Of a DNA stretch of 64,000 bases, positions 3,001 through 45,250 are shown piece after piece (within the stretch, counting starts at the first letter, position 1; each line of letters opens with the position of its first letter). A model generated the notes under the pieces. The model saw only the letters and a program-made list of their open reading frames with translations. It searched no databases and was not told where the DNA came from. Both the position numbers and the translations under genes were made by a program. The stretch comes from Actinoplanes derwentensis (GTDB lineage Bacteria; Actinomycetota; Actinomycetes; Mycobacteriales; Micromonosporaceae), in NCBI RefSeq assembly GCF_900104725.1, contig NZ_LT629758.1, positions 9,696,001 to 9,760,000 on the forward strand, given 5' to 3'.

Positions 3001-3918
3001 ATGTCATTCACACTTTTCCCCGGTACGCGCCTCGCGCTGGCCCTCGACAGCCTGGCCGGCCTCAGTGTCGGCGACGCCCTCGGCGCGCAGTACTTCGTGC
3101 CCGGCAACAAGCCCTCCGACCTGCTCGAAGCCCGCGTTCCACCGGCGCCGTGGGAGTGGACCGACGACACCGAACAGGCCTGCTGTCTGGTGTCCGTCCT
3201 GGCCGCGAACGAGTCCGAGGGTGATTTCGATCGCGATGGTTTCGCCGAGCTGCTCGCCGCCCGTTTCGAGCCCTACCGCGGCTACGGTCCGGGCGCCGTC
3301 GTGATGCTCCGCCAGATCCGCGAGGGCCTGCCCTGGCCGATCGCCGCGTCGGCGGCGTTCAACGGTCAGGGGTCGTGCGGCAACGGCGCGGCGATGCGGG
3401 CCGCACCGTTGGGCGCCTGGCATGCGGATTCCCTGGCCCACGCGGCGATCGCGGGGGTACGCGCGGCCGAGGTCACGCACGCGCACCCGGAGGGGATCGC
3501 CGGCGGGGTGGCGGTGACCGTGGCCGCGGCGGTGGCCGCCGCCGCCCGTCTGAACGGGCACCGCCCGGACCGTGGGCAGCTGCTCCGGGCCACCGCCGGG
3601 CACACTCCGGCCGGGGCGGTGCACGACGGCCTGATCGAGGCGGCCGGGCTGACGGTGCCGGTGCCGGAGGCGGCGCATCGGCTCGGCTCCGGCGGGCAGG
3701 CGACCGCGCAGGACACCGTGCCGTTCGCGCTCTGGGTCGCCGACCGTTTCCTGGACGACTACCCGGCGGCCGTCGCGGCGTGCGTGGTCGCCGGCGGGGA
3801 CGTGGACACCACCGCCGCGATCGCCGGGGGAGTGGTGGCCGCGTACACCGGCGTGGACGGCGTCCCCGGGGCGTGGCGTGCCGCCCGCGAGCCGCTCCCC
3901 TCCTGGACCGCGTGGTGA
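3001..3918 (+). CDS. ADP-ribosylglycohydrolase (DraG/ARH-like) family protein
   Basis: Predicted to remove ADP-ribose from modified proteins, nucleic acids or small molecules with a di-metal centre. The 305-residue protein (start ATG 3001) has the family signatures in order: [13 protein letters not shown], the metal-binding [19 protein letters not shown] in the middle, [14 protein letters not shown], and the C-terminal [13 protein letters not shown] with its metal-binding Asp residues. An in-frame GTG at 2944 would add 19 residues but would swallow the promoter-like sequence. No nitrogenase or ADP-ribosyltransferase gene is nearby, so the substrate is unknown. The gene stands between the two-component system and thrS. 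Confidence 0.88.
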
Positions 3919-3970
3919 CGCCCGGCGGATAACATCAGGGCGCCTAATCGTTTTCCGAATGGAGATCACC

Positions 3971-5968
3971 GTGTCTGCACCCCGTACGCCCGTCGTGGCC
4001 GACCCCCTAGTCGTCCCGGCCGGGACTACGGCGGCCGACGCGGTGGCCGCCGCCGGGCTTCCGGCACACGGGCCGAAGGCGATCGTCGTGGTCCGCGAGG
4101 CCGACGGCCGGCTGCGTGACCTGACCTGGGCGCCCGCCGCCGACACCGAGGTGACCCCGGTCGCCATCGACACCCCGGACGGGCTCGACGTGCTGCGCCA
4201 CTCGGCCGCGCACGTCCTCGCGCAGGCCGTGCAGGACGTCTTCCCGGAGGCGAAACTGGGCATCGGCCCGCCGATCCGGGACGGGTTCTACTACGACTTC
4301 GACGTGGAGAAGCCGTTCCAGCCGGAGGACCTGACGAAGCTCGAGAAGCGGATGCAGGAGATCGTCAAGGCCGGGCAGACCTTCCGCCGCCGGGAGTACG
4401 GCACGCTCGACGAGGCCAAGGCCGAGCTGAAGGACGAGCCGTTCAAGCTGGAACTGGTCGACATCAAGGGTGACGTGGACGCGGAGGCCGCCGCCGTCGG
4501 TGCGGGCGAGCTGACCCACTACGACAACGTCGACAAGGACGGCAACCGGGTCTGGGGCGATCTGTGCCGGGGGCCGCACCTGCCGTCGACCCGGCTGATC
4601 CCGGCGTTCAAGCTGATGCGCTCGGCCGCCGCGTACTGGCGCGGTTCGGAGAAGAACCCGCAGCTCCAGCGGGTTTACGGCACGGCGTGGCCGTCACGTG
4701 ACGAGCTGAAGGCGTACCTCAATCGTCTTGCCGAAGCGGAGCGCCGCGACCACCGCAAGCTGGGCAGCGAGCTGGACCTGTTCTCCTTCCCCGACGAGAT
4801 CGGCTCCGGCCTGGTGGTCTTCCACCCCAAGGGCGGTGTGATCAAGCGGGAGATGGAGGACTACGTCCGGGCCCGCCACATCGAAGAGGGCTTCCAGTAC
4901 GTCGGCAGCCCGCACATCAGCAAGGAGAACCTCTTCCAGACCTCGGGACACCTGCCCTACTACAAGGACACGATGTTCCCGCCGATGGAGCTGGAGGGGG
5001 CGAACTACTACCTCAAGGCGATGAACTGCCCGATGCACAACCTGATCTTCAGGTCGCGCGGGCGGTCCTACCGTGAGCTGCCGATGCGCCTGTTCGAGTT
5101 CGGCACCGTCTACCGCTACGAGAAGTCCGGCGTGGTGCACGGCCTGACCCGGGTGCGCGGCCTGACCCAGGACGACTCGCACTCGTACGTCACCGCCGAG
5201 CAGGCCCCCGGCGAGATCAAGCACCTGCTGAACTTCGTCCGTTCGCTGCTGGACGACTTCGGCATGGACGACTACTACCTGGAACTGTCGACCCGGGACC
5301 CGGACAGCGACAAGTTCATCGGCACCGACGAGCAGTGGGAGACCGCCACCAAGGTCCTGGAGGACGTGGCGACCGAGTCCGGCCTCGACCTGGTGCTCGA
5401 CCCGGGCGGCGCGGCGTTCTACGGCCCGAAGATCAGCGTGCAGTGCAAGGACGCGATCGGCCGGACCTGGCAGATGTCGACCATCCAGTACGACTTCAAC
5501 ATGCCGTCCCGGTTCGGCCTCGAATACCAGGCCGCCGACGGCACCCGCCAGGAACCGGTGATGATCCACTCGGCGAAGTTCGGCTCGCTGGAGCGGTTCT
5601 TCGGCGTGCTGGTCGAGCATTACGCGGGCGCGTTCCCGGCCTGGCTGGCCCCGGTGCAGGTGGTCGGCATCCCGATCCGCGACGACCACGCCGACTACCT
5701 CGCCGAGTTCGTGGCGAAACTGAAGAAGGCCGGCATCCGCGCCGAGGTCGACTACTCCACCGACCGGATGCAGAAGAAGATCCGCACCGCGCAGCAGCAG
5801 AAGATCCCGTTCATGGCGATCGCCGGCGACGACGACGTCAACGGCGGCACCGTGTCGTTCCGCTACCGGGACGGCTCACAGCGCAACGGCGTCTCGATCG
5901 ACGAGGCCGTCGCGCACGTCGCCGACGTGGTTCGCTCCCGAATCAACACCGGCCCCTCCGCCGCCTGA
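3971..5968 (+). CDS. thrS: threonyl-tRNA synthetase
   Basis: Charges tRNA-Thr with threonine in the cytosol. The 665-residue protein has a TGS domain (about 1-60), the editing domain with [11 protein letters not shown] and [13 protein letters not shown], the class II catalytic core and a C-terminal anticodon-binding domain. Zinc ligands are visible as Cys in MNCPMH, His in the [12 protein letters not shown] region and His in MIHSAKFGS. The start is GTG 3971, preceded by GGAG six bases upstream; an ATG at 3959 would put the start inside that ribosome binding site. In actinobacteria thrS is the usual first gene of the HIT-pgsA-pimA neighbourhood, as here. No T-box leader was seen. Confidence 0.97.
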
Positions 5969-13580: not shown

Positions 13581-14123
13581 ATGCCCCGCATGTGGTGGGT
13601 GGTGGGAGTCGTCGTGCTGGCCGCGATCTTCTCGGCGTACCTCGGCTGGACCGCCCAACGGGTGGAGCGTCTGCACACGCGGGCGCAGTCGGCCGAGCGC
13701 GCCCTGGACGCGCATCTGTTGCGCCGTGCGGCCGCGGCCGCGGTGGTCGCCGAACAGGTCGAATCGGTGGAGCTGTACGCGGCGGCGCGGCTCGCGCTGG
13801 ACGCCGAACCTGGTGAACGCGAGACCGCCGAGAACGACCTGACCCGGCAGCTCCAGACGGTCACGCTGGATCCGGGGGATCCGGTGGCCCGGGCTCTGAT
13901 CGGCACCAGTCGGCGCGTCATGCTGGCCCGTCAGGTGCATACCGACCTGGTGCGGGACGCGCTCAGTGCCCGGCGGCGGATCATCGTCCGGATGTTGGGG
14001 CTGACGCGGCGGTATCCGCGGCCGGAGTACTTCGACATCGTCGAGGTGGCGTTGACGGACCTGCCGCCGTTGCCGTCGCCGGCGCTGCCGGTCGAGGGCC
14101 CGTTGATAGCCCAGGCCCTCTAG
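13581..14123 (+). CDS. small membrane-anchored protein next to pimA, unknown function
   Basis: 180 residues with one N-terminal membrane segment (MWWVVGVVVLAAIFSAYLGW, about residues 4-23), then an Ala/Arg/Glu-rich helical region likely to form a coiled coil in the cytosol, and a Pro-rich tail. No catalytic motif is visible. It follows pimA by 30 bases and is probably cotranscribed. In mycobacteria the gene in this place (Rv2609c) encodes a membrane segment followed by a Nudix domain; no Nudix box is present here, so at most the N-terminal part corresponds. That relation is an inference. Confidence 0.8.
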   Translation: MPRMWWVVGVVVLAAIFSAYLGWTAQRVERLHTRAQSAERALDAHLLRRAAAAAVVAEQVESVELYAAARLALDAEPGERETAENDLTRQLQTVTLDPGDPVARALIGTSRRVMLARQVHTDLVRDALSARRRIIVRMLGLTRRYPRPEYFDIVEVALTDLPPLPSPALPVEGPLIAQAL

Positions 14124-14156
14124 GGTGGTCCCCGTTAACCCTGTTTTCTCGCGGCC

Positions 14157-14316
14157 AGCCGTAGCTCAGCGCTGTTAAACGGCTAGCCGTAGCTCAGACA
14201 TGTCTTGGCAGGTCCATAACAGTCCTGAGCTACGGCTCGAGTCGCCCGGCCGTAGCTCAGGACTGTTATCCGACCCTCATAAGACACCTGAGCTACGGCT
14301 AGCCGTAGCTCAGGAC
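14157..14316. repeat. cluster of six GCCGTAGCTCAG repeats forming two palindromes
   Basis: The 12-mer GCCGTAGCTCAG occurs six times in 160 bases. Forward copies end at 14169, 14197, 14260 and 14313; reverse copies start at 14225 and 14288. Copies 3 and 4 are arms of a perfect 21-bp inverted repeat (14216-14236 and 14249-14269) around a 12-base loop, each extended to ...GACTGTTAT. Copies 5 and 6 abut as a perfect 28-bp palindrome (14287-14314; half-site CCTGAGCTACGGCT). Copy 1 keeps most of the 22-base unit. The 12-mer resembles the D-arm part of tRNA genes, but no tRNA can be folded. The cluster fills most of the gap between convergent genes and may act as a bidirectional terminator or REP-like element. 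Confidence 0.85.
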
Positions 14317-14364
14317 GTAGTCGTGGCCGGGCGGGCGGGCCGGGCCGGGGTAGGGTGGGGTCGG

Positions 14365-15261
14365 TTACCAGCCTCGCTCGGAGAGGCGGTGCGGGACCGG
14401 CTCGTCCTCGACGTTGATGCCGACCATGGCCTCGCCCAAGCCCCGGGAGACCTTGGCGATCACATCAGGGTCGTCGTGGAACGTGGTGGCCTTGACGATC
14501 GCGGCGGCACGCAGTTCCGGATTGCCGGATTTGAAGATCCCGGAGCCGACGAAGACCCCCTCGGCGCCGAGCTGCATCATCATCGCGGCATCCGCCGGAG
14601 TCGCGATACCACCGGCGGTGAACAGCACCACGGGAAGCCGCCCGGCCTCAGCGACCTCCTTGACCAGCTCGTACGGCGCCTGAAGCTCCTTCGCGGCAAC
14701 GTACAGCTCGTCCTCCGCCAGGGTCTGCAGGCGGCGGATCTCGGCGCGGATCCTCCGCATGTGGGTGGTGGCGTTCGAGACGTCACCGGTGCCGGCCTCC
14801 CCCTTCGAGCGGATCATCGCTGCGCCTTCGGTGATCCGGCGCAGCGCCTCGCCCAGGTTGGTGGCGCCGCAGACGAACGGCACGGTGAACTGCCACTTGT
14901 CGATGTGGTTCGCGAAGTCGGCCGGGGACAGCACCTCGGATTCGTCCACGTAGTCGACGCCGAGCGCCTGCAGCACCTGCGCCTCGACGAAGTGCCCGAT
15001 CCGGGCTTTGGCCATCACCGGGATGGAGACCGCCGCGATGATGCCGTCGATCATGTCGGGGTCGGACATCCGGGAGATGCCGCCCTGGGCGCGGATGTCG
15101 GCCGGTACCCGTTCCAGGGCCATCACCGCGACGGCGCCCGCGTCCTCGGCGATCTTCGCCTGGTCGGCGTTGACCACGTCCATGATCACGCCGCCCTTGA
15201 GCATCTCCGCCATGCCGCGTTTGACGCGGGCCGTGCCGACGGCGGGCTGGTTCTCAGACAT
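14365..15261 (-). CDS. pdxS: pyridoxal 5'-phosphate synthase subunit PdxS
   Basis: Synthase subunit of the DXP-independent vitamin B6 pathway; it condenses ribose 5-phosphate, glyceraldehyde 3-phosphate and ammonia supplied by PdxT. The 298-residue protein shows the ribose-binding Asp (VIMDVV), the two catalytic Lys regions ([10 protein letters not shown] and the [11 protein letters not shown] neighbourhood) and the phosphate loop [11 protein letters not shown]. The start is ATG 15259-15261 with GAGGAG nine bases upstream; an in-frame codon at 15297 would add 12 residues. The gene faces away from pdxT, an uncommon arrangement, and ends at the palindromic repeat cluster. Confidence 0.96.
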
Positions 15262-15374
15262 GGAAATCGGCTCCTCGTGGTGTTTCGGCTTCTTCACGCC
15301 GATGTTATGAACCGGCGGTGCCGGTTCCGATAGCCAATCGGCTTGCCGGTGGACTGCTTCCCTATTGTTGGGCC

Positions 15375-16745: not shown

Positions 16746-16756
16746 GTGTCACTTGA

Positions 16757-16787
16757 CGAAAAGCCGGTCCGGTGGGCCGGCTTTTCG
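16757..16787 (+). terminator. terminator after yebC
   Basis: CGAAAAGCCGG pairs with CCGGCTTTTCG in an 11-bp stem with a 9-base loop, 11 bases after the yebC stop. The right arm ends in the TTTT run typical of rho-independent terminators. It separates yebC from the toxin-antitoxin pair. Confidence 0.8.
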
Positions 16788-16824
16788 TGGTTTCGGGGCT
16801 ACCCTCGGGGTGACAGGCACTTGC

Positions 16825-16866
16825 CTAGTGCGCACTGTCTAGTGACAGGTTTGTATGAGACTAGTA
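16825..16866 (+). promoter_or_regulatory. candidate vapBC operator with CTAGTG repeats
   Basis: CTAGTG occurs at 16825-16830 and 16839-16844, and CTAGTA at 16861-16866. The first overlaps AGTGCGCACT, a perfect 10-bp palindrome (16827-16836). Such short repeats just upstream of the antitoxin gene fit binding by a ribbon-helix-helix antitoxin, which autoregulates these operons. The region is also less GC-rich than the genes around it. Confidence 0.35.
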
Positions 16867-16907
16867 AGGTGGGGGTGTTGTTGATGGCTGATCTGCCGGA
16901 GGTGCAG

Positions 16908-17159
16908 ATGACAGTTATGGCAGTCCGTCCCGACGCGGAAGTCGAGACCACAGGCACCCCACCACCCATCGATCCGGAGTTGTTGGAGGAAGCACAGCGC
17001 CAGATCCAAGCCGGGTCGTCGAACGAGGCGATCAACGAGGCGCTGCGGCGGATGGTTCTGGAGGAGCGAGACAAGCGGCGTGCCGCCATGGAGTCTCTGT
17101 GGAAGATGAATGAAGAGGGCCGATTCGACTACAGCCACTTCGAGGCGGCCGACGAGTGA
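16908..17159 (+). CDS. type II antitoxin, VapB-like
   Basis: Predicted antitoxin for the downstream PIN-domain protein. The 83-residue protein (ATG 16908, GGAGG five bases upstream) has a core that fits a ribbon-helix-helix DNA-binding fold (IDPELLEEAQRQIQAGSSNE and following helix). Its acidic C-terminal tail (MNEEGRFDYSHFEAADE) would thread into the toxin active site. An in-frame ATG at 16884 is an alternative start. It overlaps vapC by four bases (GTGA), as is usual for such pairs. Confidence 0.8.
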   Translation: MTVMAVRPDAEVETTGTPPPIDPELLEEAQRQIQAGSSNEAINEALRRMVLEERDKRRAAMESLWKMNEEGRFDYSHFEAADE

Positions 17160-17491
17160 AGTATCTGGGTGATGCGAGCGCGTTGATCCGCATTCTGCGG
17201 AAACAAGTCGACGAAGCCTGGTTCGCGACCGTGCAGCGGGGCTTGGTGTCGATCTGTGAGCCCGCTGTCGCGGAAGCTTTGCTGGCCGCGGACGCGCGGG
17301 ACTACACAGCGACCGAGGCCAAGCTGGAGGCGACATATCCCGTCGCGGTCATCCCGGACGATGTCGGGGATCTCACTGCGGCGATTCGGCTGAAGATGAC
17401 CGTGCTGCACGAGGACAGCGACTTCGAGACGATCGCACGCTATGTGCCCGATTTGAAGCATCGTCGAATGAGTAAGGGCCCGGAGAACTAG
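17156..17491 (+). pseudogene. VapC-like PIN toxin with internal deletion
   Basis: PIN-domain ribonuclease toxin partner of the preceding antitoxin, 111 residues from GTG 17156. It keeps the N-terminal YLGDASALIRIL with the first catalytic Asp, a Glu in the CEPAVAEALLAA region and the C-terminal TVLHEDSDFETIA with its Asp. Full-length VapC proteins (about 130-140 residues) have 25-30 more residues between the VPDDVGDLTAAIRL-like helix and the TVLH strand, including the DLLIAATA helix with another catalytic acid. Here AAIRL runs straight into KMTVLHEDSDF in the same frame. An in-frame deletion is inferred, so nuclease activity is doubtful. The stop codon abuts the stop of the next, convergent gene with no base between. 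Confidence 0.65.
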
Positions 17492-32742: not shown

Positions 32743-33672
32743 ATGCCGCTGGACCAGACCGCGCTGCTGATCGAGCTGGAGCCCGTCGTGGCCGCCAACC
32801 TCGACCGGCACCTGTCACTCGCCAAGGAATGGTTCCCGCACGAGTTCGTGCCGTGGAGCGAGGGGCGGACCTTCGACGGGGTCCTCGGCGGCGAGCCGTG
32901 GCAGCCGGGCGACTCGAAACTGCCCGACGTGGCGAAGACCGCGCTGATCGTCAACCTGCTCACCGAGGACAACCTGCCCTCCTACCACCACGAGATCGCC
33001 TCCCTCTTCGGCCGGGACGGCGCGTGGGGCACCTGGGTGCACCGGTGGACCGCGGAGGAGGGCCGGCACGGCATCGCGATCCGCGACTACCTGACGGTGA
33101 CCCGCGGCGTGGACCCGGTCGAGCTGGAGCGCGCCCGGATGGACCACATGCAGGCCGGGTACGTGAACGTCAACGGTCACGAGATGCTGCACTCGATCGC
33201 GTACGTCGCGTTGCAGGAGCTGGCGACCCGGATCTCGCACCGCAACACCGGCAAGGCCACCGGCGACCCGATCGCCGAGCAGATGCTGACCCGGGTCGCC
33301 GCCGACGAGAACCTGCACATGGTCTTCTACCGCAACATCCTGACCGCGGCCTTCGACCTGTCCCCGGACCAGACGATGCGGGCGGTCGCGAACGTGACGG
33401 CCGGTTTCCAGATGCCGGGTGCCAACATCGAGGGGTTCGGCCGTAAGGCGGTGCTGATCGCGCTGGCCGGCATCTACGACCTGCGCCAGCACCGCGACGA
33501 GGTGCTGCAGCCGGTGCTGCGGCAGTGGAACGTCTGGGATCGCACCGATCTGCGTGGGGACGGCGAGCGGGCGCGCGACGAGCTGGCCGCGCAGATGAGT
33601 GAGCTGGAGACGCAGGCGTCCCGGTTCGAGGAACGGCGATCTGCGCGGGCGAAGCGGCATAAGCCGGAATAA
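32743..33672 (+). CDS. acyl-ACP desaturase (ferritin-like di-iron, DesA type)
   Basis: Predicted to introduce a double bond into acyl-ACP in the cytosol. The 309-residue protein has the di-iron ligands of the soluble stearoyl-ACP desaturase family: Glu in LLTEDNLPSYHHEI, EExxH in WTAEEGRHG, Glu in VNGHEMLHS and ExxH in ADENLHMVFY. Mycobacterial DesA1/DesA2 are the nearest named relatives by motif. The gene follows hisS by 36 bases and may be read through from it. A basic, Glu/Arg-rich C-terminus ends the protein. Confidence 0.9.
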   Translation: MPLDQTALLIELEPVVAANLDRHLSLAKEWFPHEFVPWSEGRTFDGVLGGEPWQPGDSKLPDVAKTALIVNLLTEDNLPSYHHEIASLFGRDGAWGTWVHRWTAEEGRHGIAIRDYLTVTRGVDPVELERARMDHMQAGYVNVNGHEMLHSIAYVALQELATRISHRNTGKATGDPIAEQMLTRVAADENLHMVFYRNILTAAFDLSPDQTMRAVANVTAGFQMPGANIEGFGRKAVLIALAGIYDLRQHRDEVLQPVLRQWNVWDRTDLRGDGERARDELAAQMSELETQASRFEERRSARAKRHKPE

Positions 33673-43531: not shown

Positions 43532-45250
43532 TCAGAAGAGGAAATACCGCTGAGCCATCGGCAGAACGTCGACCGGATCGGGCTCGATCACTTGCCCGTC
43601 GATACGCACCTCGAAAGTGTCAGCCTTGACCTCGATCCGAGGCATAGCGGCGTTCCGGACCATGTCCTCCTTGCCCACCGAGCGGGTGTCGGCCACCGGG
43701 ACCAGCGCCCGTTTCACGCCGATCCGGTCGCTGAGCAGCGCGTCGATGGCCGCCGGGGCGACGAACGCGACCGAGGTCTGCGCCGGCACCACGCCGTAGG
43801 ACCCGAACATCGGTCGGGGGAGCATCGGCTGCGGGGTGGGGATGGAGGCGTTCGCGTCGCCCATCTGCGCGTACGCGATCATGCCGCCCTTGATCACCAG
43901 GGCCGGCCGGACGCCGAAGAAGACCGGGTCCCAGAGCACCAGGTCGGCGAGTTTGCCCGGTTCGATCGAGCCGACCTGTTCGGCCATGCCGTGAGCTTGG
44001 GCCGGGCAGATCGTGTATTTGGCGACGTACCGCTTGGCCCGGTTGTTGTCGGCGGCCCCGTCACCCGGCAGGGATCCGATACGGGCCTTCATGACGTGCG
44101 CGGTCTGCCAGGTCCGGGTGATGACCTCGCCGACCCGCCCCATCGCCTGCGAGTCGGAGCCGATCATCGAGATCGCGCCGAGGTCGTGCAGGTAGTCCTC
44201 GGCGGCCATGGTGGACGGCCGGATCCGGCTCTCGGCGAACGCCAGGTCTTCGGGCACCGACGAGTTCAGGTGGTGGCAGACCATCAGCATGTCGAGGTGT
44301 TCGCTGAGGGTGTTGCGGGTGTACGGCCGGGTCGGGTTGGTCGACGACGGCAGGATGTTCGGGTGCGACGCGACGGTGATGATGTCCGGTGCGTGCCCGC
44401 CACCGGCGCCTTCGGTGTGATAGGCGTGGATGGATCGCCCGCCGATGGCCCGCAGCGTCTCCTCGACGAAACCCGCTTCGTTCAGCGTGTCGGTGTGGAT
44501 GGCGACCTGGACACCCGAGGCGTCGGCGACCTTGAGGCAGGCGTCGATCGCGGCCGGGGTGGTGCCCCAGTCCTCGTGCAGTTTGAACCCGCCGGCCCCG
44601 CCGCGCAGCTGTTCCCACATCGACTCGGCGGACATCGTGTTGCCCTTGCCGAGCAGCAGCACGTTGATCGGCCAGGTGTCCAGGGATTCCAGCATCCGGG
44701 CCAGGTGCCAGGCGTTCGGGGTGACCGTGGTGGCCTTGGTGCCCTCGTCCGGCCCGGTGCCGCCGCCGATGATCGTGGTGATGCCGGAGGCGAGCGCGGT
44801 GTCCAGGATCGTCGGGCTGATCAGGTGCACGTGACTGTCGATCGCGCCGGCCGTGAGGATCTTGCCGTTGCCGGCCAGGATCTGGGTGCCGGGGCCGATG
44901 ACCAGGTCGGGGTGTACGCCGTCCATGGTGTCCGGGTTGCCGGCTTTGCCGATGGCCACGATCCGGCCGTCGCGGATGCCGACGTCGGCCTTGACGATGC
45001 CCCAGTGGTCGAGCACGACGACACCGGTGATGACGGTGTCCGGGGTGCCTTCGGCGCGGGTGGCGGCGGCCTGGCCCATCGACTCGCGGATCACTTTGCC
45101 GCCGCCGAAGACGACCTCGTCGCCCGGGACCGGCCCGGCGCTGTGGTCCTCTTCGATCTCGATCAGCAGGTTGGTGTCGGCGAGCCGGATCCGGTCGCCT
45201 TTGGTGGGGCCGAGCAGCGCCGCGTAGCGACGGCGGTCGAGGCTGGTCAC
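43532..45250 (-). CDS. ureC: urease subunit alpha
   Basis: Catalytic subunit with the di-nickel centre that hydrolyses urea. The 572-residue protein has the metal ligands HVHLISP, the carbamylated Lys in [13 protein letters not shown], His in AIHTDTLNE and [14 protein letters not shown], the active-site flap Cys/His region VCHHLN and Asp in GSDSQAMGR. The start GTG 45248-45250 is preceded by GGAGGAG. All catalytic residues are present, so the enzyme should be active. Confidence 0.96.

Follow-up and report, generated by a model that had tools for sequence, protein, structure and literature searches.

Palindromic repeats located between genes are usually explained as leftovers of mobile elements. 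In the chromosome of Actinoplanes derwentensis, a compact cluster of such repeats takes up the greater part of the space separating a 180-aa ORF from pdxS, and it raises the question of whether these sequences are mobile remnants or binding sites for a protein. The same motif is also present within genes, where it appears to have been written by base substitution, and this makes the choice between repeat and binding site directly testable; the latter would point to a putative DNA-binding system that acts across the chromosome, in a genus known for producing antibiotics.

Organization of the repeat cluster

The window is the whole 64-kb stretch of chromosomal DNA that was analysed. An earlier examination of its letters, without database searches (the sequence-only reading), described six copies of a 12-mer, four forward and two reverse, within 160 bases between convergent genes. 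The recount is exact: GCCGTAGCTCAG lies at 14158, 14186, 14249 and 14302 on the + strand and at 14225 and 14288 on the - strand, all within 14158-14313, and the cluster is flanked by the 180-aa ORF (+) and pdxS (-). The perfect 21-bp inverted repeat with a 12-base loop is located at 14216-14236 and 14249-14269 (12 nt between the arms), and the perfect 28-bp palindrome is likewise placed (Table 1). An exact search of the 64 kb found no GCCGTAGCTCAG elsewhere, in agreement with that reading; at up to two mismatches the window contains 13 matches, a number reached by 3 of 100 shuffles.

The repeating unit, a half-site, spans 23 bp and is bipartite: TAGCCGTAGCTCAG-N4-GTNAT. Facing half-sites form a pair of 50-51 bp, and two pairs joined by a 12-nt linker form a compound of approx. 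114 bp (51+12+51), in the order half-site, inverted half-site, linker, half-site, inverted half-site. The repeat period within the compound is 62-63 bp, or approx. six helical turns, which is compatible with a protein array and proof of nothing.

Table 1. Features of the repeat cluster and its flanks (positions in the window)
Feature	Position	Strand	Remarks
Upstream flank, 180-aa ORF	13581..14123	+	without Pfam match; homologue in 67/67 genus genomes
Outer half-site	14156..14178	+	2 mismatches to TAGCCGTAGCTCAGNNNNGTNAT; G000:C1:9710156-9710178
Compound element (two inverted pairs, linker of 12 nt)	14178..14307	.	covariance model R1: 120.5 bits (+), 117.5 bits (-); the 20 sequences used to build the model include this copy
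Half-site H1	14184..14206	+	1 mismatch
Half-site H2	14216..14238	-	1 mismatch
Linker/loop, 12 nt, between the two inverted pairs	14237..14248	.	
Half-site H3	14247..14269	+	2 mismatches; perfect 21-bp stem with H2
Half-site H4	14279..14301	-	1 mismatch
28-bp palindrome	14287..14314	.	cores tail to tail over TA; terminator-like on - strand
Outer partial half-site, core only	14302..14313	+	
Downstream flank, pdxS (pyridoxal 5'-phosphate synthase subunit)	14365..15297	-	

Copies in the A. derwentensis genome

The A. derwentensis genome (G000) is a single contig of 10.65 Mb. It carries at least 11 compounds, including one that is interrupted by an insertion sequence, from a genome search in which 50 candidates were scored; ten align over 144 columns with a mean identity of 77%, and these ten aligned together with ten compounds of A. 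lutulentus (G075) still share 74%. Dyads alone (tail to tail over TA) and half-sites alone are also present. The sequence-only reading had proposed an undescribed palindromic repeat family, to be sought in the whole genome and in relatives. Such a family does exist, with at least 11 compounds at gene ends, 55 exact 12-mers in the genome and members in 12 of 67 genomes of the genus; moreover, no description of an Actinoplanes repeat of this kind was found in the open-licence PMC literature, searched by titles and the beginnings of abstracts.

Certain single copies among the 55 are chance or tRNA matches, including one within tRNA-Met. At up to one mismatch, the 12-mer gives 171 genome matches versus 274 for its reversed control; as it is rarer than the control, the 12-mer is a useful probe only when matched exactly or in extended form. 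For the extended half-site TAGCCGTAGCTCAGNNNNGTNAT, up to three mismatches yield 78 matches versus 19 for the reversed control, 36 of the 78 with no more than one mismatch and 63 with no more than two.

Compounds are found mainly where genes end. According to a home-made codon-usage gene caller, which was used in place of annotation, the 10 classifiable compounds of A. derwentensis lie between convergent (7) or tandem (3) genes and never between divergent ones, while the 44 units in 41 A. lutulentus loci comprise 21 convergent, 14 tandem and 2 divergent cases and 7 that are unclassifiable next to a locus end, with none inside a gene. Five A. derwentensis compounds are situated at 5.53-5.79 Mb, and a link to replichores or the terminus was considered; the coding-strand bias, assessed in 15 samples of 20 kb, switches near 4.1-4.8 Mb.

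The insertion sequence that splits one compound (locus L010, approx. 3081-4484; G000:C1 approx. 2518780-2520183) is approx. 1.4 kb long, encodes an IS4/5-type DDE transposase (PF13340, PF01609) and has the inverted ends AGGGCGGT/ACCGCCCT. CTCAG is present on both sides, a duplication of up to 5 bp whose boundary is ambiguous.

Distribution and spelling in the genus

At E 0.01, 12 of 67 Actinoplanes genomes, A. derwentensis included, contain matches to a covariance model built from the compound, and three of these carriers have a single weak match each; match counts per genome are limited by the number of candidates scored, weak matches may have dropped out, and each near-palindrome can score once per strand. 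With one copy as the query, blastn found 5 of the 67 genomes. The closest relative (G065) has neither a model match at E 0.01 nor a blastn match; thus, the genus can do without the family. The exact paired-core pattern, searched for in a collection of 84,980 species, was found in 42 stretches, 41 from A. lutulentus and one from a deltaproteobacterial MAG, and A. derwentensis itself is absent from these matches. The paired core has 0 exact matches in viral contigs, and the plasmid search returned 9 records, all of them matched via the pdxS part of the query only.

The spelling of the motif varies with the species. The outer end reads CGGCTAGCC in A. derwentensis and GGCGAGCC in A. lutulentus, and the cores are different again in G076 and G086. 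At locus L308 of G086 (1598-1717), the units retain the inner CAGGTTATTCGG part while their outer core differs, which points to a faster change of the outer 12-mer than of the inner block.

Other repeats were seen along the way. In two intergenic regions of A. lutulentus (L288, L329), further repeats near the elements were detected by eye, e.g., GCTCGTGCTCGTGGTCGC and variants of TGTCGA(G/C)TTCGGG. The gap before pdxS in G021 (L090) and G019 (L092) contains a different long inverted repeat, in L090 GCCGGTGTCGAGGCAAGTGATTTGCC ... GGAAATCACCTGCCTCGACACCGG, which may represent a separate family of palindromes or a remote dialect of this one.

Candidate identities that were tested

A derivation from the tRNA D-arm, as advanced by the sequence-only reading, did not hold: TAGCTCAG is not retained in the units read from other species (the G086 unit, for instance, is built around CGTCGCCCACGCAGGTAA), and no tRNA gene was found in the window. 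A RAYT-type transposase, which the same reading had suggested looking for, does not accompany the repeats either. The PF01797 (Y1_Tnp) search, positive in the E. coli control, gave 0 matches in A. derwentensis; the domain occurs in 21 of 67 genus genomes, of which only 2 belong to the 12 carriers, and does not track the family. Rfam has no match to the element at the gathering level, and four weak matches (E 0.00018-0.94), all to microRNA models, score well short of the respective cut-offs and are due to the hairpin shape.

Hairpin formation and possible transcription termination

Folded as DNA, positions 14171-14314 reach -56.5 kcal/mol, whereas shuffled sequences average -20.2 (z -12.6), and none of 200 shuffles folds as well; all four copies that were folded surpass their shuffles (z -6.7 to -13.2). 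When the alignment is read as one long hairpin of 42 pairs, its covariation score is equalled by 0 of 500 shuffles and its 83.9% of paired positions by 3, while doubly changed pairs are equalled in 59 and pair types in 38. For a two-hairpin pairing (81.3% paired), the shuffle counts are 55, 26, 103 and 96 of 500. Many N4 positions are unpaired. Covariation support for the long hairpin is thus weak, because related sequences can beat shuffles in score and percentage without any structure, and the two measures that resist relatedness (59/500 and 38/500) are unremarkable. A terminator-like match is present on the - strand at 14314-14287, and none was detected on the + strand in 13900-14500. As candidates, both a hairpin or terminator role and a protein-binding role of the compound are plausible.

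Copies within genes

In-gene copies are demonstrated in one genome only, that of A. derwentensis. The exact 16-mer dyad CTACGGCTAGCCGTAG occurs there in 12 places, 7 of which are inside predicted genes (L014, L015, L031, L034, L036, L208 and L209), and six of the seven are read in the same frame, xLRLAVAx. A rough estimate from codon usage, based on 2 LRLAV in a sample of 103,098 codons and an assumed 3.2 million codons per genome, gives approx. 1e-4 in-frame copies of the first 15 bases of CTACGGCTAGCCGTAG per genome. Base composition does not favour the dyad, since at up to three mismatches it has 124 matches per strand versus 545 for the reversed control; when the latter is scaled down, approx. 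0.03 exact copies are expected.

Fourteen genes with an in-gene half-site were compared with their closest homologues, taken from G065 for 13 genes and from G021 for L036 and assumed to be orthologues (protein identity 72-91%). Thirteen of the 14 align without gaps across the 23 nt, the proteins being of equal length at the site; therefore, these in-gene copies are not insertions. Over all 14 genes, differences amount to 100/247 positions in the core, 21/60 in N4 and 385/1715 in the flanks, or to 90/234, 14/52 and 327/1494 without the gapped L036, and it should be noted that choosing sites by their match in A. derwentensis inflates the apparent core differences in relatives. N4 differs at near the flank rate, far from the 75% expected had a random donor copy overwritten it; this argues that no copied element was written over these sites. 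The alignments thus indicate that the in-gene motifs arose by base substitution around a near-native N4. The N4 result is evidence against copying, yet not against chance at the weakest in-gene sites, which have 2-3 mismatches and include some chance matches (L209 and L221 have 3).

In particular, GLRLAVDQ in G065 corresponds to GLRLAVAQ in A. derwentensis, and in a type III restriction/helicase-like protein GRGLRLAVD, conserved in three relatives, is replaced by GRGLRLAVA. Some changes are silent: LAVAQ is encoded by CTA GCC GTA GCT CAG in A. derwentensis and by ctc gcc gtg gcc cag in the relative. The L036 protein shows a 7-aa gap relative to G021, and its copy may be an insertion; L034, which is outside the 14 compared genes, allowed no alignment. 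In A. lutulentus, only 1 of 123 half-sites lies in a gene, at 2 mismatches, as counted in 41 element-centred loci that are 79.5% coding.

Possible gain of elements at loci shared with relatives

Element-bearing intergenic regions of A. derwentensis are longer than those of G065 at all nine loci compared (421/44, 561/122, 247/0, 513/351, 816/673, 339/115, 399/49, 622/192 and 241/109 bp), both neighbours being the same at six of them (L020, L022, L023, L024, L032 and the window). This suggests a gain of DNA or of whole elements but does not prove it, since the loci were picked because an element is present. The sequence-only reading had advised aligning flanks in search of empty sites; the length difference agrees with gain, but the comparison with G065 revealed neither a target-site duplication nor a clean empty site, as the intergenic DNA is too diverged for a duplication to be defined. 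Furthermore, no parent transposon with exact ends was found: among the 55 exact places, no two 12-mers lie 0.2-20 kb apart besides those of the split element.

At the pdxS locus, 30 regions (A. derwentensis and 29 relatives, pdxS being seen in 28) reveal a variable gap, which in G065 measures 109 bp and has no element, in A. lutulentus contains a compound of its own and in certain relatives contains ordinary terminators. Nine A. derwentensis loci were compared with up to 10 relatives each (80 regions), and at four of them another species shows a model match next to the corresponding gene. These are A. lutulentus at pdxS, L020 and L023, and G076, G086 and, with a weak match (E 0.007), G085 at L029, with the purH-side neighbour alone in common in G086 and G085. 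Not counted are scattered matches in L328 and L317 (E 0.73 and 0.99), L303 in a neighbouring gap and G065 at L023 (E 0.23). At L021, L022, L024, L032 and L033, the gap in relatives received no match at thresholds up to E 1. A. lutulentus carries approx. one further element per 100 kb near the focal ones (3 non-focal places in 326 kb), and fewer than one shared place is estimated to arise by chance in this species. The excess of shared positions is no more than suggestive; with elements at this density, shared position is weak proof of common ancestry.

Comparison with known systems

In placement, the family may be said to resemble REP/BIME/REPIN elements: both consist of short palindromes in many copies per genome, mainly intergenic, that form inverted pairs and cluster at gene ends. 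In contrast to REPs, it has no RAYT/Y1 in the A. derwentensis genome and no link to it in the genus, leaves N4 free and includes in-gene copies made by substitution. The foot of a REP hairpin bears a GTAG/GGAG tetranucleotide; in A. derwentensis units GTAG is inside the stem core, and it is not retained in the G086 units read.

In behaviour, the family resembles DNA uptake sequences (DUS/USS). DUS have 9-12 informative positions and occur in thousands of copies per genome, and their intragenic copies arise by base change. We know of no competence in this Actinoplanes. DUS are described as having copies inside genes, inverted pairs located at terminators, dyads that overlap and dialects that differ between species (PMC3630211), all of which have counterparts here, the intragenic copies in A. 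derwentensis only. Unlike DUS, the family has far fewer copies, a much longer motif and one preferred reading frame, while no frame preference was seen for the S. muelleri dyads (PMC3630211).

Rickettsia palindromic elements (RPEs), which are integrated elements of approx. 150 bp (PMC10969869), likewise place a palindrome in frame inside unrelated genes. The A. derwentensis copies differ from them, as 13 of 14 genes contain no inserted codons. Thus, the family lacks a defining property of REPs (the transposase), of RPEs (insertion) and of DUS (copy number). parS and matS are dispersed chromosomal protein-binding sites whose motif is also found inside genes and can arise by point mutation. The present motif is similarly specific, occurs within genes and could arise by point mutation, but it is longer, forms arrays of four half-sites and occurs in a minority of species in one genus.

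Possible nature of the repeats

The explanation considered here as the leading candidate, with a confidence that falls somewhat short of even, is that the repeats are recognition sites for a sequence-specific DNA-binding factor of certain Actinoplanes. The half-site would be the DNA motif read by this putative protein, and the compound, an array of facing half-sites, would serve as a site for a multimer. At 3' ends, mostly convergent, the transcript would fold into a long hairpin that ends or protects both messages, so that the hairpins would also terminate transcription, and selection or a comparable bias would maintain the motif. A broader version, in which the repeats form a genome-wide DNA address system, is more doubtful; it would combine a long bipartite motif, species dialects and four-half-site arrays at gene ends with copies written into genes by base changes (at least in A. 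derwentensis), for which amino-acid substitutions are the price, all read by a putative factor of fast-evolving specificity.

The main rival is a mobile REP/BIME- or MITE-like palindrome that some transposase spreads to gene ends, any termination being incidental. Tentatively, this deserves serious weight: the distribution is patchy (12/67 genomes), the intergenic regions of A. derwentensis exceed those of G065 at 9/9 loci, and all but 1 of the 123 A. lutulentus half-sites are intergenic. Against it stand the in-gene copies, which are substitutions, the failure to find a target-site duplication, a clean empty site against G065 or a parent transposon with exact ends, and Y1_Tnp, the transposase family surveyed, which gave no match in A. 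derwentensis and has no phyletic link to the repeats. The binding-motif and mobile-origin readings are compatible, as the motif may have travelled with a spreading array and acquired a function later, or it may have been functional first and then been built into an array.

That the repeats are just the ordinary bidirectional transcription terminators of this lineage, sharing a hairpin sequence and having no protein partner, is improbable. The convergent location in both A. derwentensis and A. lutulentus and the - strand match at the 28-bp palindrome would be expected of terminators, and ordinary hairpin terminators occupy the same region in L085, L087, L103 and L104 (by eye) and in G065 at L020; but a 23-bp bipartite sequence that recurs from locus to locus is not a property of ordinary terminators, in-gene copies that keep to one frame would make no sense in that role, no match was detected on the + strand in 13900-14500 and covariation support is weak. 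Least likely by far is the view that biased recombination maintains the repeats as signals for the uptake or transfer of DNA, in the manner of Neisseria DUS. Although the in-gene copies, inverted pairs at gene ends, dyads and dialects recall those described for DUS (PMC3630211), 63 half-sites at up to two mismatches in 10.65 Mb are few, the motif has 18 informative positions, and its preferred frame sets it apart from the S. muelleri dyads of that source.

Other features of the window

Two Rfam models score above their gathering thresholds in the window, ASdes with 80.6 bits at 33058-33125 (-) and 5_ureB_sRNA with 56 bits at 44799-45094 (+); both matches may stem from conserved protein-coding sequence. 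A pair of small genes precedes ruvC (16746-17491). The first matches VapB_antitoxin with 23.1 bits, against a Pfam cut-off of 23.4, and the second, for which Pfam gave no match, presumably resembles a PIN-domain toxin.
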